A stretch of DNA of 30,608 nt, taken from positions 1-30,608 of IMG/VR virus record IMGVR_UViG_3300043425_000757; one strand, written 5' to 3'. The notes under the pieces are model-generated. The model did no database searches and had not been told where the DNA came from. It worked only from the letters and a program-made list of their open reading frames with translations. Shown here piece after piece: positions 6,506 through 30,606 of the stretch. A program made the position numbers and the translations under genes. The number at the start of each line of letters is the position of its first letter. The first letter of the stretch is position 1. The DNA comes from a virus.

Positions 6506-8125
6506 GTGGCCATCTCGATCACCACCGACCTGGTCGACATCAGCAACGCTGACACGACGACCACTGGTGGCACGTTCTACCGCCTGAACGGCGTCAACAC
6601 TGGCAACCCAGCCGCAGAGCCCGACGCGCGCAAGCAGGGCGTCGCCTCGATGGCCTACAAGGGGGGCGCCACTACCGGCACTACCGACACCGGCGGCCAC
6701 TTCAACGCTACGGCCAACTTCGACCTCACCAACCAGCACGTCTTCCACTGGCGCAACAACGTTACTCCCGCCAACATGGCTACCAAGGCCAACCGGGGGG
6801 TGGCGTTTGGCCTGACCAACACCAGCACGACATCCACCGCGGCGTGGAGCACGACCAACTACAAGCTGTGGTTTCTGGACGGCTCGGACACGGAGACCGA
6901 TGGCGGCTGGAAGTGCTACGTCGTCAACCCGGCGGGGACGGCGAACGTGTCGGCCGGCACCCTCACACTGAACGCCGTGCGCAACTGCGGCTTCATCAAC
7001 CGCCAGCTCACTGGCGTCAACACCGCGCTGAACAACATCCTGGTGGACGCCATCCGGCGCGGCACCGGCCTGACCGCCACGGCGTCGAGTGCGGCCGACA
7101 CGATCACCTTCGCCAACCTCTACGCCACCGACTCGACCAACTCAAACGCCTGGGGCATCATCACCCAGAACGCCGGCATCTACTACGGCGCCGGCACCAT
7201 GCGCGTCGGCTCTGCCGCGCAGGCCAACACCTGTCTGTTCAAGGACACCAACCAGGTGCTGGTGTGGCGCGACTTCCCCGTCGCCAACACCCTGTACTCT
7301 TTCACCCTGGCGGGCGCGGCAAGCCAGCGCACCACCTTCCAGCTCGGCAACAAGACCGGCACGTCCACGTCTGACGGCTGCGTGGTGCGCGGCCAGGGCA
7401 CAGCGGTGTGGAACGTGGTGTGTGACGCCAACAGCGACTTCGACGCCTACGCCTGCACCTTTGCCCGCATGCGCGCCGCCACCCTGTCCTCGGGCAGCGA
7501 GCTGCGCGACACGGCGTTTTCGGCGTGCGGCACCATCGACACCAACGGCGCCACCATCGCCAGCTGCACGTTTTCAGCCCACACCGCCACGCAGCTCAAG
7601 CTCGATGCCGCCAGCGAGGCCACGCCGCTGTCAAGCCTGGTGTTCACCAGCGGCGGCACCGGCCACGCCATCGAAATCACCGCCGCCGGCACCTACACGC
7701 TCACTGGCCACACTTTCACCGGCTATGCCGCGAGCAATGGCAGCACCGGCAACGAGACGATTCACGTCAACCTCGCGTCCGGCACGGTCAACATCAGCGT
7801 GGACTCCGCCATTTCGGTGCGCACGGCCGGCGCCACGGTCAACGTCACCGTGGGCCAGAAGACGCTAACCGTCACCAACGTCGTCAGCGGCTCTGACGTG
7901 GTCATCCTGGCCGCCGGCACCGACACCGTGCTGGCCATCAACGACGGCGCCACCAACCCCGTCACCAGCTTTGCCTACACCTACAGCTACAGCGCAGGCG
8001 TGAATGTGGACGTGGCGGTCTACAAGGCCGGCTACGTGCCCTACATCGTGCGCAACTACCTGCTGGAAAACGGCAACGCCTCGCTGCCGGCAGCGCAGGT
8101 GGTCGACAGGAACTACACGCCATGA
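6506..8125 (+). CDS. Probable virion structural protein, beta-rich
   Basis: This encodes 539 aa starting at GTG, 3 nt after the portal stop, with GAGG at 6494-6497 as a possible Shine-Dalgarno. The composition is Thr/Ser/Ala/Gly/Asn-rich with many short alternating strands. The middle and C-terminal parts (about 240-430) read like a right-handed beta-helix (repeated short turns such as NGATIASCTF and GTGHAIEITAAGTYTLTGHTF). The N-terminal 120 residues read as a separate jelly-roll-like or LamG-like domain. There are no catalytic motifs. The stop overlaps the next ATG (ATGA). Its place in a late operon and its composition suggest an exposed virion protein such as a head fibre or decoration, but I cannot name a family. 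Confidence 0.65.
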   Translation: MAISITTDLVDISNADTTTTGGTFYRLNGVNTGNPAAEPDARKQGVASMAYKGGATTGTTDTGGHFNATANFDLTNQHVFHWRNNVTPANMATKANRGVAFGLTNTSTTSTAAWSTTNYKLWFLDGSDTETDGGWKCYVVNPAGTANVSAGTLTLNAVRNCGFINRQLTGVNTALNNILVDAIRRGTGLTATASSAADTITFANLYATDSTNSNAWGIITQNAGIYYGAGTMRVGSAAQANTCLFKDTNQVLVWRDFPVANTLYSFTLAGAASQRTTFQLGNKTGTSTSDGCVVRGQGTAVWNVVCDANSDFDAYACTFARMRAATLSSGSELRDTAFSACGTIDTNGATIASCTFSAHTATQLKLDAASEATPLSSLVFTSGGTGHAIEITAAGTYTLTGHTFTGYAASNGSTGNETIHVNLASGTVNISVDSAISVRTAGATVNVTVGQKTLTVTNVVSGSDVVILAAGTDTVLAINDGATNPVTSFAYTYSYSAGVNVDVAVYKAGYVPYIVRNYLLENGNASLPAAQVVDRNYTP

Positions 8126-8286
8126 AAACCGTCGTGGACTCCACAGACAAGAAGCACCTGGGCGAGCGCGTCGACGAGACCGCCGAGGTCATCACCTTCG
8201 CCAACGGCGAGACCATGAACGTCGAGAAACGGCTGCACGGCAACACCGTGCTGGCCAACAGCAACTACGTCATCACCCTGGAGTAA
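8122..8286 (+). CDS. Small phage protein, 54 aa
   Basis: This small ORF starts on an ATGA overlap with the preceding stop and ends 3 nt before the next ATG, so translational coupling on both sides supports it as real. It begins MKTVVDSTDKKHLGE and ends NSNYVITLE. It is charged and probably a small beta protein (VITFANGETMNVEKRL reads as a two-stranded hairpin). It carries no membrane segment or known motif. Tight packing between two structural genes suggests an accessory virion or assembly protein. The function is unknown. Confidence 0.7.
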   Translation: MKTVVDSTDKKHLGERVDETAEVITFANGETMNVEKRLHGNTVLANSNYVITLE

Positions 8287-8289
8287 GCC

Positions 8290-9684
8290 ATGCCCAAGAT
8301 CATCGACGGCGACAACCTGAACGTCGGCACCGAAATCACCATCAACACCACCGCCAAGACCTTCACGCTGGTGGCGGCCGGCAACCTGGTGGCCAAGGAC
8401 GGCGTCACGCTGCAGGCGCTGTACTCCAAGTTCATCAAGCTGTGGGAGACGGACACCTACAACAAGTTTCCGTTTCCGATGTACGCGATCGACGCAAAGT
8501 CGGGTCAGTTCCAGTTCGGCACCGACGGCGGGTCTTTTAGCGGCTGGAAGCCTGCCAATGACACCACGCGCCAGATGCTGCGTGACGGCGGCTGGTCAGA
8601 GTACACGTCCGGTGGCGTTCTGGCCCGCCAGTATGTGGGCATCGTGTCACTGGGTGAGGTAAGTGCCAACGCCCAGCTGTATTACCAGCGGGCCTCAACC
8701 GACAGCCCGACCAACTTCACCTTCACCGATGAGGTAAACGAAGGCATCCAGGTTTTTGGCAATGCCACCGCTGACGCGACCACAACCACCTTCGACAAGC
8801 GCGCATTCTTCAAGGCCTACGCCCGCGAAGAGCAGAAGACCTACTCCAGCTCCACCCTGGCCGACACCGGCCAGACCGCCACGGGCGCCTATACCGTCAA
8901 CGTGCTGCTGAGCAACGCGGACGACCTCAACACCCTGGTGGCGGACGCAGGCATCGGCGTTGCGCCCTACACCGGCATCAACGTCAGCTACTACTCGGTA
9001 GCGCAGTCGATTGACATCAACACCGTCAGCGACAACTTCCCCTTCAGCATCATCGTGGAGGGCAACAGCGCCACGCTGCAGGAGATCTACACCAAAGTGC
9101 AGTACCTGCTGCGCCAGGGCACTGACATCAACAGCGCGGTGACCAACAGCGCGGGCACCAAGATCGGCAAGATCCAGAACGACTTGATGTACTTTGTCGG
9201 CCCGGACCTGTTCTGCCGTCAGGGCGTGTTCATCCAAAACATCGACCCGAACTTCCTGAACAACGTCTACTTCATCGACGACAACGGCGTCGCGCGCCAG
9301 TACAACTACGCGGCCGCTGGACAGCTGCAGTTCAACAGCTTCCTCACCAGCGGCAGCACGGGCTACTACCGCATGTACATCACCGACTCGGTGACCGGCA
9401 CGGATGACTACGGCACCGCCACCGCCATCACGGTGAACGACAAGGATGGCAACCCCATCGCGGGCACCATCGACGCGGCCACCAAGGGCTTCACCTTCGC
9501 CTACGACACCAACACCCAGGGCGGCCGCTCGGTCTTCACCAGCCCCGGCGGTGACGTGCCCGTCACCGTGGTGGCCGGCAACAAGGGCGTGGCCAAGCCG
9601 GTGGTGGCCACCGGCATCATCAGCCGCAGCAAGGGCATCGTCATCGGCCTGGTGGCAGAGCAAGACCGCGCCTACGTGGCCTGA
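8290..9684 (+). CDS. Probable virion structural protein
   Basis: This 464-aa protein starts with MPKIIDGDNLNVGTEITINT, an opening I associate with unnamed structural proteins of diverse tailed phages. An N-terminal region of about 110 residues includes the KLWETDTYNKFPFPMYAI and GWKPANDTTRQMLRDGGW segments. A long beta-rich region with Asn/Asp/Thr/Tyr follows, ending with an Ig-like C-terminal stretch (about 375-464: TDSVTGTDDYGTATAITVNDKDGNP...). GGAG at 8280-8283 is the ribosome-binding site, overlapping the end of the small gene before it. It is probably surface-exposed and possibly part of a head or tail appendage, given its neighbours. No enzymatic motif is seen. Confidence 0.7.
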   Translation: MPKIIDGDNLNVGTEITINTTAKTFTLVAAGNLVAKDGVTLQALYSKFIKLWETDTYNKFPFPMYAIDAKSGQFQFGTDGGSFSGWKPANDTTRQMLRDGGWSEYTSGGVLARQYVGIVSLGEVSANAQLYYQRASTDSPTNFTFTDEVNEGIQVFGNATADATTTTFDKRAFFKAYAREEQKTYSSSTLADTGQTATGAYTVNVLLSNADDLNTLVADAGIGVAPYTGINVSYYSVAQSIDINTVSDNFPFSIIVEGNSATLQEIYTKVQYLLRQGTDINSAVTNSAGTKIGKIQNDLMYFVGPDLFCRQGVFIQNIDPNFLNNVYFIDDNGVARQYNYAAAGQLQFNSFLTSGSTGYYRMYITDSVTGTDDYGTATAITVNDKDGNPIAGTIDAATKGFTFAYDTNTQGGRSVFTSPGGDVPVTVVAGNKGVAKPVVATGIISRSKGIVIGLVAEQDRAYVA

Positions 9685-9696
9685 TAGGAGCACAGC

Positions 9697-11397
9697 ATGC
9701 CGATTGACTCATTCGTCCGCGTTCCGCCCGACAGCACGGGCAAGCGCCTGTTCACGCAGGAGCACACCGTGGGCGCCGTGGCGGTGCAGGCGCAGGTCAT
9801 GCACCTGGCCGACGAGGACAACCCCAACTACATGGTGGCCGTGGACGAGAGCGGCGCGCTCTACACGCGCTTTGCCGAGGGCAAGCCGCAGCTCGACAGT
9901 TTTGGCAAGCTGCGGGTCAGCGGCGCCACCGTGCTGGGCGACTACACGTTCAAAGAAGGCCTGCTGCCCGGCCTGTTTGCCGGCCGGCGCACGGGCGGCG
10001 CCACCATCACGCACAACGACACGGTGCACTGCGCGGTGCTCGGCGTCACCACCGCTAGCGGCGACGTGGCGGCCTTCACGTCCAACGTGTACCACCACTA
10101 CTTCCCCGGCATCTCGCAGCTGGCCGTCATGACGGTGGCCTGCGGCGATGCGGGCAAGGCGGGCCTCACGCGGCGCTGGGGCTACTTTGACGCCAACAAC
10201 GGCTTCATGTTCGCCCAGGTCAATGGCGTCCTGCGCGTGCAGGTGCGCAGTGACCGATCGGGCTCGGTGGCGCTGATTGCCGACGTGGCCCAGGCCGACT
10301 GGAACGTGGACAAGCTCGATGGCACCGGGCCGTCTGGCATGACGATCAGCCCGCTGGACGACAACATCTACTGGATTGACGTGCAGTGGCTGGGCGCCGG
10401 CCGCATCCGCTTTGGCACCTACTACCGCGGCCAGCGCGTGGTGTGTCACGAGTACTACCACGAGGGCAACGGCGGGCAACCGCACGCCACCTCGGGCTCG
10501 CTGCCGCTGTGCTTCGTCCAGGCCAACACGGCCGCCACGGCGTCGTCGTCAGAGATGCGCGTGTGGTGCGGCTCGGTGCTGGCCGAGGCCGGGCTGGACA
10601 TCACCACCTTTGGCGCCAACCGTCTTGCCACCTTCAGCAAGGCCATTGACGTGGCCGCCTTCGTGGCCTCTGGCGCAGAGTACGTCTACGTCGGCGCGCT
10701 CTCGCCTCGTGTTCAGGTTGGCAACCACACCAACCGCAGTGTCTACTTCCCCACGCACCTGGAGGCTATGGCCTATGACGAGGCCGGCAACGACGTGCGC
10801 TGCGAGATCAAGGTCTACATTGACCCAGCATTGAGCGGCGCCGCGTTTTCCAACGTCGAGCCCTTTGACCCAGGCTGCACGGTGGACCATGACACCTCGG
10901 CCAGCTACTTTGGCGGCGGCATCAGAGGCATTGCCACCTACTTCAAAGGCAGCAGCAGCCGGTCTTTGTCGAGTGACTACAAGTCAATGACCGGCGGCAG
11001 CTTCAAGAACTACGCCGAGAACGGCGGCACGGTGGTCGGCAGCATCGCGTCGATCAGCAAAGCGTCGCCGGCCGTGGTCACCTTTGCCGAGGGCCGCTCC
11101 CCCTTCCGCGAATCCGGCTACCCGCTTGCCATCGCTGGCGTCTCCGGCATGACGCAAATTAACGGCGCCGCGGTGTACGCCAAGGTCACGGGCCTGAACA
11201 GCGTGGCGCTGTACCAAGACGCCGCGCTGACCGTGCCTTTTGACTCCTCGGCCTTCAGCACCTACACCTCGGGCGGCACGGCCACTGGCCTGTACGGTGA
11301 CCGCCTGGTGTTTGCTCTGGTCTGCAAGCCCATCGCCAAAACCACCGGCACGCTGAACGTCCGCGCCATGCTGTCCTGGAAGGAAATCAACCAGTGA
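9697..11397 (+). CDS. Probable virion structural protein, lectin-like fold
   Basis: This encodes 566 aa with a strong Shine-Dalgarno (AGGAG at 9686-9690). It starts MPIDSFVRVPPDSTGKRLFT. Residues about 60-300 form a beta-sandwich-like domain (RWGYFDANNGFMFAQVNGVLRV, IYWIDVQWLGAGRIRFGTYY) that reads like a concanavalin/LamG-type fold found in large phage structural proteins. Residues 310-420 and the C-terminus are further beta-rich modules. Such folds often bind glycans or decorate the virion. It overlaps the next gene by 4 nt (GTGA). I recognise the type, not a named family, so a role in surface attachment is an inference. Confidence 0.7.
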   Translation: MPIDSFVRVPPDSTGKRLFTQEHTVGAVAVQAQVMHLADEDNPNYMVAVDESGALYTRFAEGKPQLDSFGKLRVSGATVLGDYTFKEGLLPGLFAGRRTGGATITHNDTVHCAVLGVTTASGDVAAFTSNVYHHYFPGISQLAVMTVACGDAGKAGLTRRWGYFDANNGFMFAQVNGVLRVQVRSDRSGSVALIADVAQADWNVDKLDGTGPSGMTISPLDDNIYWIDVQWLGAGRIRFGTYYRGQRVVCHEYYHEGNGGQPHATSGSLPLCFVQANTAATASSSEMRVWCGSVLAEAGLDITTFGANRLATFSKAIDVAAFVASGAEYVYVGALSPRVQVGNHTNRSVYFPTHLEAMAYDEAGNDVRCEIKVYIDPALSGAAFSNVEPFDPGCTVDHDTSASYFGGGIRGIATYFKGSSSRSLSSDYKSMTGGSFKNYAENGGTVVGSIASISKASPAVVTFAEGRSPFRESGYPLAIAGVSGMTQINGAAVYAKVTGLNSVALYQDAALTVPFDSSAFSTYTSGGTATGLYGDRLVFALVCKPIAKTTGTLNVRAMLSWKEINQ

Positions 11398-12074
11398 CCC
11401 TGGCTGTCTGGGCCGCCCACGGCGCTGAATGGGCGCTGGCCGAGAAGGTCAGCTTCAACGGCGTCACCAAGCGCATCACGGTCAACGCCGGGGTGACGGC
11501 GCTGGACATCCGCGAGGACGTCTACAGCGCCTGGGTGCGCTGGGTGGAGCGCGAAGACAACGCCCGCTTTCTGCTGGCCATGCGCCAGACGGGCTTTGAC
11601 CCCATCCCGGGCGGCTTCACCGGGGCTACCTACTTCCTGCGCAACGGCTGGAAGCTGGAATACGACCCCCAGGTGGTGACCATCGCGGGCGTGCTGTACA
11701 GCGACGACTACGCCACGCCCTACTGGTCAGCCAACGACCAGCCCATCTACCCCGCCGTGGTGTCCAGCCTGGTCAACTCCGCCGTGGTCACACAAAACGT
11801 GGTCACTGGCACAGCGCTCACTGAAGCGCAGACCGCCAACGCCGTGTGGCAGGCCGCCGCCCGCACGCTCACCGCTGCAGGTGACGACGCCATTGCCACC
11901 GCAGTGCGCGCCGCCATCGCCACCGAGCTGGCCCGCATCCTCGACCTGGCCGCCATCCACGGCCTGGTGGCCGGACAGCCGCTCACCGTCAGCGCCACCC
12001 AGCGCCAGGCCGGCGGCATCACGCAAACCATCACCGAGGCGGGCGGCACCGTCACCGTCGCCCGCGCCGCGTGA
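11394..12074 (+). CDS. Conserved phage protein, probable structural
   Basis: This encodes 226 aa from a GTG that overlaps the previous stop (GTGA), with AGGA at 11381-11384 nine nt upstream. The N-terminal half (VSFNGVTKRITVNAGVTALDIREDVYSAWVRWVEREDN, then DPIPGGFTGATYFLRNGWKL) is a pattern I recognise from many unannotated siphophage structural genes. The C-terminal half is Ala-rich and helical (about 130-190), then ends in a short strand pair (TQTITEAGGTVTVARAA). It is probably a virion or appendage-assembly component. It overlaps the following gene by 4 nt. Confidence 0.7.
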   Translation: MTLAVWAAHGAEWALAEKVSFNGVTKRITVNAGVTALDIREDVYSAWVRWVEREDNARFLLAMRQTGFDPIPGGFTGATYFLRNGWKLEYDPQVVTIAGVLYSDDYATPYWSANDQPIYPAVVSSLVNSAVVTQNVVTGTALTEAQTANAVWQAAARTLTAAGDDAIATAVRAAIATELARILDLAAIHGLVAGQPLTVSATQRQAGGITQTITEAGGTVTVARAA

Positions 12075-20200: not shown

Positions 20201-23200
20201 TCCTACCTGCGCGGCTACCTCGAACAGGTCACCGAAGTCACCCGCACCATCGAAGCCACGGGCGTGAGCTACCGCCGCGAAGGCGAGACCAACGTCCAGA
20301 CCCTGCAGCGCCTGGCCAGCAGCCTGGCCACCGTCAACCCCGCGCTCGACGTGCTGGGCCTGAACCTCTACGCCACCAGCCTGGCCGGCGCAGACCTGGC
20401 CAGCCAACTGGCTGACGCCTTCGGCGGCCTTGAGGCCTTTGGCCAAGCCGCCGCCAGCTACTACTCGGAGTTCTACAGCGAGGCCGAGCGCACCGCCAAG
20501 ACCACAGAGCAGCTCACCAAGGCGCTGGGCGATATGGGCCTGACCCTGCCCGCCACCCGCGACGCCTACCGCCAGCTGGTGGAAGCGCAAGACCTCAACA
20601 CCGAGGCCGGCCGCAAAAACTTTGCCGCCCTGGTGCAGCTCAGCGGCACGTTCGCCGAGATCACGCCTGTGGTGGAAGACCTGGCCGACGCGGGAGAAAA
20701 CGCCACCGAGACCCTGCGCAGCGCCGCCGACATCCTGCGCGAGCGCCAGGGACTGGAGCGCGAGCTGCTGCAGCTGCAGGGCGACACCACAGCCCTGCGG
20801 GCCCTGGATCGTGCCGCCCTAGACGCCTCCAACCAGGCGCTCTTTGACCAAATCACCGCGCTGCAAGACAGCCAAGCCGCTGCGGCCGCTGCGGCAGACG
20901 CCGAGCGCTCCCTGGCCGCCGAGCGTGACCGCATCGCGCAAGAGCGTGCCGGCCTGGAGCGCCAGCTGCTGGAGCTGCAGGGCAACACCACGGCACTGCG
21001 CGCCCTGGACCGTGCTGCGCTGGACGCCAGCAACCGCGCCCTGTACGACCAGATCACGGCGCTGCAAGACAGCCAGGCCGCCACCGCAGCCGCCGCCCAG
21101 GCCGCGCAAGAGGCCGCAGACGCGGAGCGCGCCCTGGCCGCTGAGCGTGACCGCATCGCGCAAGAGCGCGCCGGCCTGGAGCGGCAACTGCTGCAACTGC
21201 AGGGCGACACCAACGCCCTGCGAGCGCTGGACCGCGCGGCGCTGGACGCGAGCAACCGAGCGCTCTTTGACCACATCACCGCGCTGCAAGACAGCCAGGC
21301 CGCCACCGCAGCCGCCGCCCAGGCTGCGCAAGAGGCCGCAGACGCCGAGCGCGCCCTGGCCGCCGAGCGTGACCGCATCGCGCAAGAGCGTGCCGGCCTC
21401 GAGCGCCAACTGCTGCAGCTGCAGGGCGACACCACGGCATTGCGTGCCCTGGACCGCGCTGCGCTGGACGAGTCCAACCGCGCGCTCTTTGACCAGATCA
21501 CCGCGCTGCAGGACAGCCAGGCCGCCGCCGCCGCTGCAGCACAAGCCCAGCGCGAGTACGCCCAGGCGGTGGAGACCGCCCAAGCCAATGTGGAGCGCGC
21601 CCGCGCCGCCGTTGAAAGCGCCGAAGCCGGCGTCAACGCCGTGCGCGAGGCGGGCACCAGCGCCTACCTAAGCGCCCAGGACCGCGTGGCCGCGGCGCAG
21701 GCCCGCATTGCCGAGATCAACGCCCAAATGGCCAACGAGGCGCGCGACGCTGCACTGCGGGTGCGCGAGCTGGGCACCAGCCTGCAGCAGTTCGTGACGG
21801 GTGAGTTTTCCACGCCGTCTCAATCCTTTGGCGCCCTGTTGCGCAAAGCCCTGGGCGGCGACACCGAGGCCATGCAGGGCCTGCCAGAAGCCGCGCGCGC
21901 GGCCATTGACGTGTCTCGCTCCTCAGCGCGCACCAGTGCCCAGGCTGCCATCGAGCGCGCCCGCATCCTCAGCAGCGTGGCTGAGGTGGCCGCAGTGGCT
22001 GCCGCCACCGCTGTGCCAGCAGGAGCCGCCGAGGTAAACCCCATGACCGCCGCCACCGCAGAGCTGGCCGCCGCCCAGGCCGAGCTGGCGGATGCGCTGA
22101 GTGTGGCCAACACCATAGGCGCGCCGCTCACACGCAAGGTGGAGGATCTGCTGGAGCGCTTTACCGCCGCGCAAGAGGTGCTGGCCAAGGCGCAAACAGA
22201 CTACGCCGCGGCGCAGCAGGTGCTGGCTGACATCAAGCTCAACACCGGCAACACCGTGACCGAGGTGACCAAGCTGCAAGGACTGGCCGCCAAAGCCGAG
22301 CTGGAAGTGCAACTCAAAGCCGTGGCAGAAAGCAACCTGCCAGACGACATCAAGGCGCTGATCGCAGACAAAGGCAAGACCTACACCGCCACCATCACAG
22401 CCGTGATGGACTCTGCGCTGACGGACGCAGAAAAGACGCTGCTGCTGGAAGCCAACAGCACCGGCCTGCGCTCGGTCATCTTGAGCAGCGCGTTCAAGAA
22501 CGTATTGACGGCCCAGGAGCAGCAAGCCCTGATGGCAGTCGATGAAACGGTCTTGCGCACCATCCAAGCCGTGGTGAGCACCGGCACGCTCACCAATGAC
22601 CAAAAGCTGCTGCTGCAGCAACAGTCTGAAACCGTCAGAAGAACCATTCAGACGCTGGTGGACTCCAGCGCGTTGACCGACGAGCAAAAGCGCATCCTTG
22701 GCCTGGTCACCAGCAGCACCAGCAGCACGCTCACTTTGTCGGGCACGCTGACGTTTGACCCCAGCAACTCCCTGCAAAGCATCTTCAACAACATCAGCGC
22801 CAGCAACGCCATGCTGGCCCGCCTGGTGCTGTCGCAGGTCAACCCCGCCACCAGCACCGTGGGCCAAAAGGCCAGCGCCTATGCCGGGCTGCGGCAGATG
22901 TACTCGGATGCCGACACGCGGCGCATTGTGGAAGTGCAGTTTGGCCCGCAAACCAATGAGGCCTGGGCGGCGCTGAAGCAGGCCGCTGGCTTTGCCACGG
23001 GCGGCGTGTTCACCAACGGCCTAGTGACCAGCGCCACTGCTTTCCCCATGGGGGTCATGGGCGAGGCCGGTCCTGAAGCCATCATGCCCCTGGGCCGCGG
23101 CGCCGACGGCAGCCTGGGCGTGCAGATGCTGGGCAACAGCACGCGCCGCGACGAGGTTTTGGTGGCCGAGATCCGCGCCCTGCGCGCTGAAGTCACCGAG

Positions 23201-24197: not shown

Positions 24198-24665
24198 ATG
24201 CCCACCTCACCCACCCCCATCACCACGCTGCCCACGGCGCCCAGCCGGGCAGACCCGGCCAACTTTGCCACCCGGGCTGATGCCTTTCTCGGCCAGCTGC
24301 CCACCTTTGGCACGCAGGCCAATGCGGTGGCCTCGGTCACGTACACCAACGCCGTGGAAGCACTGGCCAGCGCCAATGCTGCGCAGGCTGACCGCATCCT
24401 GGCGCAGGCGGCCCTGGCCGGCATCACGGCGCAAAGCCCAGCGGTCAACGCGGCGGCTGCAGCTGCCAGCGCAGCCGCCGCAGCCGCCTCGGCGGCAGTG
24501 GCACAGGCTGTCAGCCCCGACAGCCCGGTGCGCTTCAACACCCGCCGCATCGACGCCGCCTTGACCATTCCCAGCGCCTACAACGCCGGGTCCACCGGGC
24601 CCATCGCCATCGCTGACGGCATCACCGTCACCGTTCAAGACAACGCCACCTGGAGCATTCAATGA
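24198..24665 (+). CDS. Tail fibre adaptor, Ala-rich coiled coil
   Basis: A 155-aa protein. The N-terminus (PTAPSRADPANFATRADAFLGQLPTFGTQANAV) is the common start of phage tail fibre proteins. A helical Ala-rich stretch (about 55-105) suits a trimeric coiled coil. The last 40 residues (RRIDAALTIPSAYNAGSTGPIAIADGITVTVQDNATWSIQ) are the short beta cap often found at the end of fibres. GAAGGA at 24181-24186 could be its ribosome-binding site. It overlaps the DGR target gene by 4 nt (ATGA), so the two products are likely made together and probably meet in the virion, with this one as anchor for the variable protein. Confidence 0.7.
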   Translation: MPTSPTPITTLPTAPSRADPANFATRADAFLGQLPTFGTQANAVASVTYTNAVEALASANAAQADRILAQAALAGITAQSPAVNAAAAAASAAAAAASAAVAQAVSPDSPVRFNTRRIDAALTIPSAYNAGSTGPIAIADGITVTVQDNATWSIQ

Positions 24666-26005
24666 GCACTCTTGTCACCCGCACCATTCAAACCCCTGAC
24701 GGCTCGGCCGTCGCTTTCCCCAACGGCATCCGCATCGGCACAGGCGGCGCCGGCACGGTCAACCACATCGGCGTGGCCGGCCAGCAGGGCTTTGGCGTGG
24801 GCATCGCGCCCGAACTGCCCGCCGGCTTTGCCAAGCTCTACGGCACGGAAGACCCCGCCAGCGAGAACTACGGCAACTACCAGTACAGCGACGGCTCGGT
24901 GATGGTCTACATCCCGGCCTTCTACTACCGCTACGGCACGGGCAGCAACGGCGGCGCCATCAACGTGGTGGACATCAAGCCCTTTAGCCACTGGGCCAGC
25001 GTGGCCGATGCCAACGCTGCGGGCTACGCCCTGCACCGCGCCTTCTACAACGGCGGCAGCATCCGCCAGGGCGTGTTTGTGGACAAGTACCTGGCCAGCA
25101 ACAACGGCGGGGTGGCGTCCAGCCTGAAAAACGGCGTGGTCATCACCAGCGCACAGCGCGGCAGCCTGACCACGGCCACCTTCGCCAGCCTCACGGGCGC
25201 CCCATCCAACAACCTGGCCGGCGCCATTGCCGCAGCCAAAACGCGCGGCAGCCGCTTCTTCTGCAACACCCGGTTCATCCGCGGCGCCCTGGCCTTGCTG
25301 GCCAATGCGCACGGCTCAGCCGCCACCGGCACCACCTACTGCGCCTGGTACAGCGCCGGCAGCACCAACTTCCCCAAGGGCTGCAACAACAACGCGTTGG
25401 GCGACACCAATGACGGCGCTATCGCCTTTGTGGACGACGGCAACGGCACCTACGCCTGCGGCAAGACTGGCAGCGCCAACTTCATGGCGCGCACCACGCA
25501 CAACGGCCAACTCTGCGGTATTGCAGACCTCAACGGCGTGGTTTGGGAAACAGAGCTGGGCCTCACCTCCAACGGCACCAACTTCTACGTGCTCAAGACT
25601 GCCGCGGACGTGGCCACCATCACCGGCGGTACCACCCTGGCCACTGACGCCTGGGGCGCCACCGGCTTGGCCGCGCTGTACGACAGCATTGGCGCCACGT
25701 ACGAGAGCTTGACCAACTCGGCCAGCAACAAGGTGTTCGGCAACGCGGCACAAGTGCTCAGCGCAGCCACCAGCGGCACCGCCTGGGGATTTGCCGGCCT
25801 GGGTATTCCGCTGGTGGGCGGTGTGGGTGGCAGCAACCAGTTCGGCAACGACTACCTCTACGACGCCCGCACGACAGACCTCTGTGTGCTCTCTGGCGGC
25901 AGCTGGGGCATCGGCGGCGATGCCGGTGTCTGGGCGCTGCGCTTGGACTACTCCCGCGCCGGCTCGAGCAACGGCATCGGGTTGCGTGCCGCCTCTTACC
26001 TGTAA
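24662..26005 (+). CDS. DGR target: variable tail protein with C-type-lectin-like domain
   Basis: This 447-aa protein has a beta-rich N-terminal region and a C-terminal domain with the pattern of DGR variable proteins (formylglycine-generating-enzyme/C-type lectin fold). Supporting segments are VWETELGL, AWGFAGLGIPLVGG, LCVLSGGSWG and GVWALRLDYSRAGSSNGIGLRA. The last 41 residues hold the variable region. Residues 414, 416, 417, 427, 429, 430, 434, 436, 437 and 438 are encoded by AAC in the template; here they are S, G, I, R, D, Y, G, S, N and G. The conserved W415 and the VWAL and IGLR strands lie in fixed positions. The ATG overlaps the fibre adaptor stop, with GGAG at 24653-24656 in front. 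It most likely binds the host receptor at the tail tip. Confidence 0.9.
   Translation: MSTLVTRTIQTPDGSAVAFPNGIRIGTGGAGTVNHIGVAGQQGFGVGIAPELPAGFAKLYGTEDPASENYGNYQYSDGSVMVYIPAFYYRYGTGSNGGAINVVDIKPFSHWASVADANAAGYALHRAFYNGGSIRQGVFVDKYLASNNGGVASSLKNGVVITSAQRGSLTTATFASLTGAPSNNLAGAIAAAKTRGSRFFCNTRFIRGALALLANAHGSAATGTTYCAWYSAGSTNFPKGCNNNALGDTNDGAIAFVDDGNGTYACGKTGSANFMARTTHNGQLCGIADLNGVVWETELGLTSNGTNFYVLKTAADVATITGGTTLATDAWGATGLAALYDSIGATYESLTNSASNKVFGNAAQVLSAATSGTAWGFAGLGIPLVGGVGGSNQFGNDYLYDARTTDLCVLSGGSWGIGGDAGVWALRLDYSRAGSSNGIGLRAASYL
25880..25996 (+). repeat. DGR variable region (VR)
   Basis: This 117-bp block aligns without gaps to the template at 26523-26639 (offset 643). I count 17 mismatches, all at template adenines: 12 A to G, 3 A to C and 2 A to T; nine of the 26 template adenines are unchanged. 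No other base differs. The mismatches are at 25889, 25902, 25907, 25908, 25911, 25916, 25919, 25940, 25941, 25946, 25949, 25961, 25962, 25968, 25973, 25974 and 25992. Homology stops abruptly on both sides. Confidence 0.97.
25977..25996 (+). other. Probable initiation of mutagenic homing (IMH) site
   Basis: The GC-rich 3' end of the VR, which in known DGRs marks where cDNA integration begins. Its only difference from the template equivalent (26620-26639) is C at 25992 against A at 26635. This may be a fixed IMH/IMH* difference rather than a mutagenesis event. Confidence 0.65.
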
Positions 26006-26012
26006 CTCTGAC

Positions 26013-26034
26013 GCCTGGCGCGAAAGCGCCGGGC
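26013..26034 (+). promoter_or_regulatory. DGR target-recognition hairpin/cruciform
   Basis: GCCTGGCGC (26013-26021), loop GAAA (26022-26025), GCGCCGGGC (26026-26034): a 9-bp stem with one T-G pair and a GNRA-type loop. It lies between the target gene stop and avd, 16 nt past the end of the VR. Known DGRs of the Bordetella phage BPP-1 type need a GC-rich hairpin of about this size and loop just downstream of the VR for efficient retrohoming. No such hairpin follows the template repeat. It could also act as a weak attenuator, but no T-run follows. Confidence 0.8.
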
Positions 26035-26041
26035 TCATGCC

Positions 26042-26518
26042 ATGACGCATCAGAACCGCAGCATCCATGCACAGGCCGGCTTGCACCGCAAGCTGGTGCT
26101 GTTTGCCGCGCAGCTGGAGATGTATCTGGCGCACTTTCCTTCGTGCCATAAGTACGCGCTGACGCAGCAGATCCGCGCGACCTACGTGGACGTCTACAAC
26201 CTGGTGACGGAGGCGCAAAAGCGCTACCACAAGCGCACCACGCTTACCCAGCTGGATGTGCGGCACGAGCAACTGCGCATGCTGCTGTTGCTGGCCCACG
26301 AGCTGGGGCTGTTCAACTTCAGCCGGGGCAAGCAAGACCCAGAACGCCCCGGCGAGCACCGGGCGCTGGTCATCTTGCGCCTGGTGGACGAGCTGGGCCG
26401 CATGATTGGCGGCTGGCTCAAGACGGAAATGCAGCCCGGGCCACAAGCCCAGGGCGCGCCGGCCACCGTGCCGGCAGAAGAATCCGGCAGCCTGGCTGCC
26501 GGTGCGGTGGGGGCTTGA
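26042..26518 (+). CDS. avd: DGR accessory variability determinant, Avd-like
   Basis: A 158-aa, mostly helical, basic protein. Its four-helix plan, length to about residue 125, and position between target gene and template repeat match the Avd family. In the BPP-1 system Avd forms a pentameric barrel that binds the reverse transcriptase and the DGR RNA and is needed for cDNA synthesis. Helices run about 5-32, 38-65, 67-95 and 104-130; the closing IGGWLKTEM corresponds to the conserved end of the family (LGSWI in BPP-1). The last 30 residues are an Ala/Gly/Pro-rich tail not found in the short Bordetella Avd. No clear Shine-Dalgarno: the recognition hairpin ends 7 nt before the ATG. Confidence 0.85.
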   Translation: MTHQNRSIHAQAGLHRKLVLFAAQLEMYLAHFPSCHKYALTQQIRATYVDVYNLVTEAQKRYHKRTTLTQLDVRHEQLRMLLLLAHELGLFNFSRGKQDPERPGEHRALVILRLVDELGRMIGGWLKTEMQPGPQAQGAPATVPAEESGSLAAGAVGA

Positions 26519-26522
26519 CATG

Positions 26523-26639
26523 CTCTGTGTGATCTCTGGCGGCAACTGGAACAACGGCAGCAATGCCGGTGTCTGGGCGCTGAACTTGAACAACTCCCGC
26601 GCCAACTCGAACAACAACATCGGGTTGCGTGCCGACTCT
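26523..26639 (+). repeat. DGR template repeat (TR)
   Basis: The invariant donor copy of the VR, lying between avd (stop 26516-26518) and the reverse transcriptase, the same order as in BPP-1. It contains 26 adenines, arranged mainly as ten AAC codons in the reading frame of the target; AAC is the codon form that allows most amino acids on A-mutagenesis without creating stops. It is transcribed in the same direction as the reverse transcriptase and would form the core of the DGR RNA. An ORF runs through it but has no support as a gene. Confidence 0.97.
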
Positions 26640-26800
26640 GAGCCTGGCTTGCCACATGCGGCATTGGCCGACCGGCGCAGAGGGAGCCCCCGTCGCGGCT
26701 GGTGCCGAAATCTGCCGCCCAGGCGCCCTTCAGTAGCCCGCTCAGCCCGTGTTGGCAGACCGGCGACCACTGGCGCCCAGGCACCTCAAGGGGCGCACGC
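26640..26800 (+). ncRNA. Spacer of the DGR RNA, TR to reverse transcriptase
   Basis: A 161-nt stretch without a supported gene. In known DGRs the RNA 3' of the TR is structured, binds the RT-Avd complex and helps prime cDNA synthesis. Its length here fits that role. Near its 3' end AAGGGG (26788-26793) is the ribosome-binding site of the reverse transcriptase. RNA ends and folding cannot be fixed by eye. Confidence 0.5.
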
Positions 26801-27820
26801 ATGAAGCGCCACGGCCAGCTCTTTGACCTCTTCGCGCACCCGCAGGCCCTCATGCAGGCCTACGTGCGCGCCCGCGAAGACAAGCGCAACAGCCGAGGCT
26901 GCTTTCTGTTTGAGCGCAACCTGGGCGCCAACATCCACGCCTTGCATGACGAGCTGCGCAGCCGCACCTACCAGCCCCAGCCCGTCAATGCCTTCTGGAT
27001 CAACGACGGCCGCAAGCCCCGCCTGATCGAGGCCCCAGCCTTCCGCGACCTGGTGGTGCAGCACGCCGTCTACGCCGTGGTGGGCCCCCTGTTTGAGCGA
27101 CGCTACATCGCCACCAGCTTTGCCTGCCGCACGGGCCTGGGCACCCACGCCGCCGCTGACTGGCTGCAAGCCGCCATGCGCCGCGCACCGCGCACCGCCT
27201 GGACGCTGCACGTAGACGTGCGCAAGTTCTTCTACAGCGTAGACCGCCAGACCCTGGCCATGCTGGTGCGCCAGGTCATCAAGTGCCCTGACACCCTGCG
27301 CCTGCTGGATTTGTTCGCCCAGCGGCCGGCACCCGCTGGCATTCCCATCGGCAACCTGATGTCGCAGACCTTTGCCAACCTGTACCTCAACAGCCTGGAC
27401 CACTTCTGCAAGCGCCAGCTCGGCGTGCAGGACTACGGCCGCTACATGGATGACGCCGTGATGGTGGCACCCAGCCGCGCCGCAGCCGCGCAATGGCTGG
27501 ATGGCATCCGCCAGCACCTTGGCCTGCTGGGGCTTGAAATCAGCCACCACAGCCTGCAGCCCCTGCGCCGCGGCCTCAACTGGGTGGGCTACCGCACCTG
27601 GGCCCGCGCGCGCTTTGTGCGCCCGCGCCTGGTCAGCCAGGTGCGCGCTGACGCCCGCGCCGGCCGCTTACAGGCCATCGTTTCACGCCTGGGCCACGCG
27701 CGCCACACGGCATCTCACCAACCCCTCGTCCACTACCTGACGGAGCACCACCATGCCCTCTCTCATCGCCTACCGCAAAACCATCACCGCCATCAACACC
27801 TTCGAGCTGCGGCTGCCTGA
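26801..27820 (+). CDS. DGR reverse transcriptase
   Basis: A 339-aa reverse transcriptase that copies the TR RNA with adenine-specific errors. Motifs: domain 1 region RKPRLIEAP (71-79); first catalytic Asp in LHVDVRKFFYSVD (D139); domain 4 GIPIGNLMSQ (180-189), where SQ replaces the SP of group II intron and retroviral enzymes, the hallmark of DGR enzymes; the catalytic YMDD (215-218); and the domain 7 region LNWVGYR. I use the ATG at 26801 with AAGGGG 7 nt upstream; the frame is open back to 26702 but that part is spacer. The last 22 codons overlap the next gene in another frame and code a His/Ala-rich tail. There is no endonuclease domain, as usual for DGR enzymes. Confidence 0.95.
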   Translation: MKRHGQLFDLFAHPQALMQAYVRAREDKRNSRGCFLFERNLGANIHALHDELRSRTYQPQPVNAFWINDGRKPRLIEAPAFRDLVVQHAVYAVVGPLFERRYIATSFACRTGLGTHAAADWLQAAMRRAPRTAWTLHVDVRKFFYSVDRQTLAMLVRQVIKCPDTLRLLDLFAQRPAPAGIPIGNLMSQTFANLYLNSLDHFCKRQLGVQDYGRYMDDAVMVAPSRAAAAQWLDGIRQHLGLLGLEISHHSLQPLRRGLNWVGYRTWARARFVRPRLVSQVRADARAGRLQAIVSRLGHARHTASHQPLVHYLTEHHHALSHRLPQNHHRHQHLRAAAA

Positions 27821-28178
27821 ATCCGCCCCTGGCCAGCGCCAGGGCCAGGAAATCGCCACGCTGGCCGATGGCCGCACCGTCGTCGTGCTGGATGACGGCG
27901 CCACGCTGCCGACCGACCAGCCCGCGCAGATCGCGCCCAGCATCGAGACGCTGCCCAGCCCGCTGCCCGTGGACGTGCGCGACACCATCCGCGCCGCCAG
28001 CCCGCACGTGCGCCTGATCGACCAGCGCGTGGTCGACAAGATCCGCGAGCTCTACAGCATCAACGACGAAATCAAGCTGCTGCGCATCGCCCCCAGCGCG
28101 GAAACCACCGCCTGGAACGACCACGTCGAAGCCTGCCGCGCATGGGGCCGGGCTGAGAAGGCCAAGCTCGGGCTCTGA
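27753..28178 (+). CDS. Probable tail-fibre assembly protein
   Basis: A 141-aa protein, with GGAG at 27742-27745 in front of the ATG and a 68-nt overlap with the end of the reverse transcriptase gene. The N-terminal half is beta-rich (FELRLPESA, ATLADGRTVVVLDDGATLP); the C-terminal half is helical: VRLIDQRVVDKIRELYSINDEIKLLRIAPSAETTAWNDHVEACRAWGRAEKAKLGL. The latter half resembles small proteins coded after tail fibre genes in many proteobacterial prophages, which I take to be assembly chaperones or fibre-associated proteins. It could help to fold the DGR-diversified protein. The function is inferred from place. Confidence 0.6.
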   Translation: MPSLIAYRKTITAINTFELRLPESAPGQRQGQEIATLADGRTVVVLDDGATLPTDQPAQIAPSIETLPSPLPVDVRDTIRAASPHVRLIDQRVVDKIRELYSINDEIKLLRIAPSAETTAWNDHVEACRAWGRAEKAKLGL

Positions 28179-29733: not shown

Positions 29734-30606
29734 TCAGGCCCGTTTGCGGCCAATTTGGCCCACAGCTTCGGCCAAAGTGTCGGCATACAGGTGCGCGTAA
29801 CGCTGGGTGCTGACCGGGCTTTTGTGGCCCAGAACCTGGCCCACGGTGAAAAGCGGCACGCCCGCGTTGGCCATTTCGCTGGCCGCGCTGTGGCGCAGAT
29901 CGTGAAAGCGCACATCCCCCAGGCCCACCTTGTCCTTGGCGCGCGTCCATGCGGCCTGCACGCCGCGTTTGTGGCCCGTCAGGGGTAGGTGTTTGAGCAG
30001 GTGGCGGATGCGTGGGTGCGCGGGTATCACGCGCGGCTGGCCGTTCTTGCTGTCGGCCAGCACCAGCAGGTTGTCCTGCACCTGCACGTTCCACAGCTCG
30101 CCCAGGCGCATGCCGGTGTAGAAGCACACGCGGATGGCAATCTGCGCCTGCCAGCTGCCGCACGCGCGGCAGGCCTTGAGCATGCCCTCGCGCGTGATGT
30201 AGATCTTGCGGGCGTTGCGCACGGCCGGCAGCAGCATGCGGGCGGTGGGGTCGGTGTCGGTGAGGCCGTGGCGCTTCCAGGCCCAGCGGCACGCGGCTTT
30301 CAGCAGCGCCAGGCGGTTCTTCAGGGTGGCCGGGCCGGCGTCGGCGGTCTTGATGACCTCCTGGGCCACTGCGGGCAGCTCGCTCATCGGGCGGCCCTGC
30401 CAGGCCCATGCGATGGCGCTGAGGTGCTCGGCGGCGCTCTTGTAGCTCTTGAGCGCGGTCTTGTCGGTGAGGTAGTGCTTGACGGCCTGGTCGATCAGGG
30501 GTTCGTCGCGGGCGATGCCAGATGCAAGGCCGTAGAGGCGCGCGGTTTCCGTGCGGTCGAACGCGTCAGCTTGAGCTTGACTCCAGCCTTGCGGAAGCAG
30601 TCGTGT
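29734..30606 (-). CDS. int: Tyrosine-type integrase, 5' end cut by window edge
   Basis: The frame is open from the right edge to the TGA at 29734-29736, about 291 codons, with no need of the internal ATG at 30387. Visible N-terminal part: LPQGWSQAQADAFDRTETARLYGLASGIARDEPLIDQ and a SAM-like core-binding domain (ALKSYKSAAEHLSAI). The catalytic domain shows Arg in YTGMRLGEL, HDLRHSAAS with His and the second Arg, LGHK, and the nucleophile Tyr in STQRYAHLY. It catalyses integration and excision at the tRNA-Ser att site next to it. The gene points toward the att core, 80 bp away, as in many tRNA-specific phage integrases. The true start is outside the window. Confidence 0.92.
   Translation of the reverse strand, partial: TRLLPQGWSQAQADAFDRTETARLYGLASGIARDEPLIDQAVKHYLTDKTALKSYKSAAEHLSAIAWAWQGRPMSELPAVAQEVIKTADAGPATLKNRLALLKAACRWAWKRHGLTDTDPTARMLLPAVRNARKIYITREGMLKACRACGSWQAQIAIRVCFYTGMRLGELWNVQVQDNLLVLADSKNGQPRVIPAHPRIRHLLKHLPLTGHKRGVQAAWTRAKDKVGLGDVRFHDLRHSAASEMANAGVPLFTVGQVLGHKSPVSTQRYAHLYADTLAEAVGQIGRKRA

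Follow-up and report, generated by a model that had tools for sequence, protein, structure and literature searches.

A BPP-1-type diversity-generating retroelement in a siphophage-like genome and the turnover of its variable repeat among near-identical phages

The stretch of DNA analyzed here ("the window": 30,608 nucleotides, the entire IMG/VR record IMGVR_UViG_3300043425_000757) almost certainly carries a canonical, functional diversity-generating retroelement (DGR) of the BPP-1 type, located in a siphophage-like genome of temperate type, with Burkholderiales as probable hosts. The DGR is complete, as originally predicted, with all parts intact and in the order target – variable repeat (VR) – avd – template repeat (TR) – reverse transcriptase (RT). 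Each part was found where it had been placed, and the gap-free TR/VR alignment was reproduced exactly; what that list of elements missed is a hairpin downstream of the VR (Table 1). The implication that a DGR in a long-tailed phage is novel does not hold: siphophage DGRs have already been published (PMC8143477), and three of the six global DGR clades are dominated by phage tail targets (PMC8144416). The window is a new example whose cassette is, by the standards of the field, unremarkable. Near-identical phages that differ only in the VR, VRs frozen after loss of the template, and two types of hairpin nonetheless amount to a natural experiment: the set could be used to test what marks the VR as acceptor, and the fate of a phage that ceases to diversify its tail protein.

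Table 1. Position and basis of the features recognized in the window.
Feature	Position	Strand	Basis or remark
Tail tape measure gene, 2023 aa	17237-23308	+	PHROG E=1e-107
Short tail-fibre-like gene	24198-24665	+	PHROG tail fibre C-terminus E=5e-6
DGR target gene, 447 aa, C-terminal VR	24662-26005	+	AF2 model, Foldseek, profile search
VR (variable repeat)	25880-25996	+	Gap-free TR alignment, 17 adenine-only mismatches
IMH-like 3' end of VR	25978-25996	+	Without mutable adenine; fixed C opposite TR A
Hairpin with GAAA loop, just past target stop codon	26013-26034	+	DNA-parameter fold
avd (accessory variability determinant), 158 aa	26042-26518	+	Pfam bAvd E=8e-13; PHROG Avd E=8e-18
TR (template repeat)	26523-26639	+	Starts 4 bases past avd stop codon
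Spacer (Sp) between TR and RT	26640-26800	+	Conserved, structured; RNAalifold
DGR reverse transcriptase, 339 aa, GNLMSQ and YMDD	26801-27820	+	PHROG RT E=7e-94; PDB 8ub7 E=8e-47
Small gene overlapping RT 3' end	27753-28178	+	ORF
Tyrosine integrase, cut by record end	29734-30606	-	PF00589 E=2e-20 at 29785-30183

Over the 117 bp of the alignment the TR and VR differ at 17 positions (12 A>G, 3 A>C and 2 A>T), every one at an adenine of the TR; given the 26 adenines of the TR, the probability that all 17 would do so by chance is 2.6e-14. The preference for G has the direction reported for a reconstituted BPP-1 DGR (PMC12875486). When the window was scanned for the TR with any base allowed at A and up to three mismatches tolerated, the VR and TR sites alone matched; neither another target nor another VR came to light, and 100 shuffles gave no match. 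One of the 17 mismatches, at TR offset 112 (GACTC in the TR, GCCTC in the VR), is fixed in all 24 non-duplicate TR/VR pairs, those of relatives having been sought within 1.5 kb upstream of the RT. Because it is present in every pair we read this A/C mismatch as the fixed difference between IMH* (in the TR) and IMH (in the VR), and not as a product of mutagenesis; the window has therefore undergone change at 16 of 25 mutable adenines rather than at 17 of 26. Thus the original count and its restriction to adenines stand, while the attribution of all 17 differences to mutagenesis does not. An adenine-free run follows the last variable position of the VR. In the target frame, TR adenines are confined to the first and second codon positions, mutation cannot turn any TR codon into a stop, and the coding capacity of the TR is ~5.5e14 proteins.

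Evidence on activity comes from close relatives. A query with the RT found 26 IMG/VR loci and a further 3 on genome contigs; among them L002 and L003, contigs from two other metagenomes, have a TR identical to that of the window. Compared with each other (one consensus VR per contig, as in all VR comparisons between phages), L002 and L003 show no difference in 600 bp upstream or in 460 bp downstream, yet 13 in the VR, all at TR adenines; with the window included, 21 VR positions are variable and again all correspond to TR adenines. A second set – six phages with one common TR and six VRs – has 25 variable positions, all of them TR adenines. Between L004 and L008 there are 17 VR differences vs. 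2 of 600 and 0 of 460 in the flanks. A scan of IMG/VR with the TR, any base being allowed at its adenines, gave exact matches to nothing but the VRs and TRs of L002 and L003; the same scan for the second set returned its members plus further contigs. Two of the observations named beforehand as counter-evidence bear on this comparison: VRs differ from one related genome to another, and in the window's own clade, as in the sister clade nearest to it, VRs vary at TR adenines alone. Recent activity of the window's cassette, with mutagenic retrohoming read indirectly from near-identical phages, is thus well-supported. It is very unlikely that the DGR, though it looks intact, is now inactive and owes its VR diversity to earlier rounds. 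Decay does occur in the family, where several relatives without TR and RT keep a mutated VR; against present inactivity stand the 13 VR differences of L002 and L003 with 0 in 1,060 flanking bases, the similar contrast between L004 and L008, and the window itself, which shows no damage to the RT motifs, Avd, TR, IMH, hairpin or spacer.

Copies of 117 bp that lie 643 bp from each other might also arise by ordinary duplication of the target 3' end (gene conversion or recombination), followed by differences that are A-biased by chance. Such an origin is scarcely credible: all 17 mismatches hit adenines, and always those of the same copy (p ~3e-14), the same adenine-side polarity is common to all 24 non-duplicate pairs (in which 56% of mutable adenines have changed, as against 4 of 2,220 other positions), and next to the copies lie the genes for Avd and a DGR RT. 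Flanked by VR and TR, the gene that had been described as Avd-like matches Pfam bAvd (PF22296, above cut-off) and PHROG Avd and, by profile, the structure of BPP-1 Avd (4dwl, E=4e-22); Avd accompanies most DGRs, though not all.

The RT contains both of the motifs that had been noted. Its frame opens at GTG 26702, but relatives all align from ATG 26801, which is most likely the start; the upstream GTG is not needed. When group II RTs serve as the outgroup, the tree places the window RT among DGR RTs with support of 100/100, on the DGR side rather than outside the clade, the position that the original prediction had held to be damaging. That the RT comes from another retroelement (a group II intron or a retron), the TR/VR pair being incidental, can be dismissed: it also matches the group II intron RT model TIGR04416, but far under the cut-off (103 vs. 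300 bits), the tree refutes it, the DGR motif GxxxSQ stands where group II RTs show QGxxxSP, and the best solved match is an RT deposited together with Avd (8ub7), at 8e-47 vs. 4e-14 for the next. Upstream of the RT, RNAalifold on the spacers of 18 relatives gives 34 pairs, of which 18 have at least one both-sided change, and the spacer is presumed to belong to the template RNA; no Rfam family matched the window.

The target belongs to no family in Pfam or NCBIfam. It follows directly on a tail-fibre-like gene, the two overlapping by 4 bases at the target start, and its own family extends to 388 IMG/VR stretches in one scan. An AF2 model based on an 81-sequence alignment has a mean pLDDT of 91.6 (an earlier run on 19 close sequences reached 33 and was discarded). 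Foldseek places TaqVP (PDB 5vf4) first, over the whole length (E=7e-15, TM 0.5-0.6, 18% identity), followed by Mtd of BPP-1 (1yu2, E=9e-4) and then by formylglycine-generating enzymes (FGE); a profile search also matches 5vf4, in both halves (E=6e-6). The predicted fold is therefore of FGE-like, C-type-lectin type with the VR at its C-terminus. Position and fold together make this a probable receptor-binding tail protein.

From these parts a mechanism can be proposed. The avd gene, TR and spacer would be transcribed together; a complex of RT and Avd would bind the structured spacer and copy the TR, with random bases inserted opposite adenines and priming within the spacer, as work on BPP-1 leads one to expect. 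The mutated cDNA would then replace the VR, its integration again being modeled on BPP-1. The IMH and the post-stop hairpin would mark the VR, and not the TR, as acceptor, the role of the hairpin also being taken from BPP-1. The outcome would be a stop-free library of ~5.5e14 possible proteins, displayed at the C-terminal C-type-lectin face of the tail protein and most likely used in receptor switching, if the protein binds a host receptor as its position and fold suggest.

BPP-1 is a podovirus-type phage. Its DGR (mtd, avd/bbp7, TR, brt) resembles that of the window in the order target-VR-hairpin-avd-TR-spacer-RT, in a TR that comes directly after the avd stop and in a GAAA-loop hairpin after the VR; the RTs are 36% identical over 83%, and Avd and target have recognizably the same folds. 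Differences are the long-tail genes (tape measure, tail terminator) and integrase of the window genome, an FGE-like target body closer to TaqVP than to Mtd, and a single base in the aligned stretch at which the window's IMH and IMH* differ. TaqVP is the DGR variable protein of Thermus aquaticus Y51MC23 (PMC4605624, PMC6328139). By description, the Bacuni siphophages of Bacteroides uniformis can be set beside the window as long-tailed phages with a DGR, one that varies tail-associated genes linked to host tropism; they differ in host phylum and in their fimbrial-tip-like targets (PMC8143477). The closest named RT, 42% identical and nested in the window's RT group, is that of Pseudomonas phage Bise, which shares an A-only TR/VR (9 changes) but is a contractile-tail phage with a fully Watson-Crick hairpin stem.

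The window encodes a terminase, portal, decoration, head closure, tail terminator and major tail proteins in addition to the tape measure, and a GH108 endolysin and holin beyond which lies the tyrosine integrase. Because of these head, tail, lysis and integrase genes the genome is classed, from its gene content, as temperate and siphophage-like. The "lambda-like" label attached to it earlier fits in part: portal, terminase and decoration proteins are of lambda-type families and no sheath match was found among the genes scanned, but the capsid is a ClpP-protease/capsid fusion. The nearest cellular RTs (60-65% identical) occur in Rhodoferax and Burkholderiales MAGs, and these related RTs suggest a host among the Burkholderiales. 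Between the portal and protease-capsid genes lie three long ORFs (6506-8125, 8290-9684 and 11394-12074, spanning positions 6506-12074 of the window) that have no Pfam or PHROG match; beside them is a virion structural gene (9697-11397). Within the tape measure gene, 20894-21537 contains several near-identical repeats of ~222 bp (74 codons).

The hairpin absent from the original list has 9 stem steps, with one T-G mismatch, and begins 17 bases after the VR. It fits the rule of Guo et al., a hairpin with a GRNA loop and a GC-rich stem soon after the VR (PMC3240598), and by analogy is the putative equivalent of the target-recognition hairpin of BPP-1. Among non-duplicate loci a hairpin is present in 87 of the 87 with an intact cassette and in 10 of the 21 without TR and RT, compared to 5.8% of random stretches (L005 and L159, whose target calls are wrong or truncated, were left out). 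Hairpin and cassette thus tend to be lost together, although the associated Fisher p of 1e-9 ignores shared ancestry and indicates a trend only.

The stem itself varies. In 64 of 88 non-duplicate cassette-bearing loci (Bise included; counts ignore relatedness) the outer GC arm contains a core, GAGC-GNNA-GCGA, in which two G-C pairs are flanked by tandem G-A mismatches, whereas 21 of the 88, the window among them, have Watson-Crick pairs at the same two steps. Hairpins of the tandem G-A type occur in L004, L018, L022, L056 and ~60 other loci, and the core is nearly invariant while the RTs differ by more than half. None of the 11 named DGR phages inspected showed it: 8 have Watson-Crick stems and GRNA loops, and in Magia, BalMu-1 and LPPA56 a simple scan found no such hairpin. 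Tandem G-A would stabilize the hairpin of the coding strand only, the other strand having T-C mismatches, and so a single-strand form would be indicated. We tentatively suggest, as a possibility we consider less than even, that the target-marking hairpin is often remodeled in this family and that its variants point to a single-strand hairpin, and not a symmetric cruciform, as the form recognized.

Relatives that have lost the TR and the RT core still carry the target. Many of them also have a VR with evident adenine mutations, and most the 3' end of the RT. Examples are L026 (5328-5700) and L086 (1350-1800), with further cases in L079, L087, L101 and L138. In L026, avd, TR and most of the RT have been lost across a 12-bp shared sequence, and comparison of its VR with the TR of relatives gives 19 differences, every one at an adenine; in L086 the same kind of loss took place across an 8-bp shared sequence, and VR changes comprise 19 at adenines plus 1 other. 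The 3' end is retained in every RT remnant. In the window it overlaps the gene that follows, and this overlap may explain the retention; the small gene itself has no match in PHROG or Pfam. Loss of a DGR with retention of its targets is described in Treponema denticola (PMC4891356). A further variation in layout is found in L093 and L101, where an extra ORF of ~60 codons is inserted between hairpin and avd; in L093 the spacing of TR and VR is 780.
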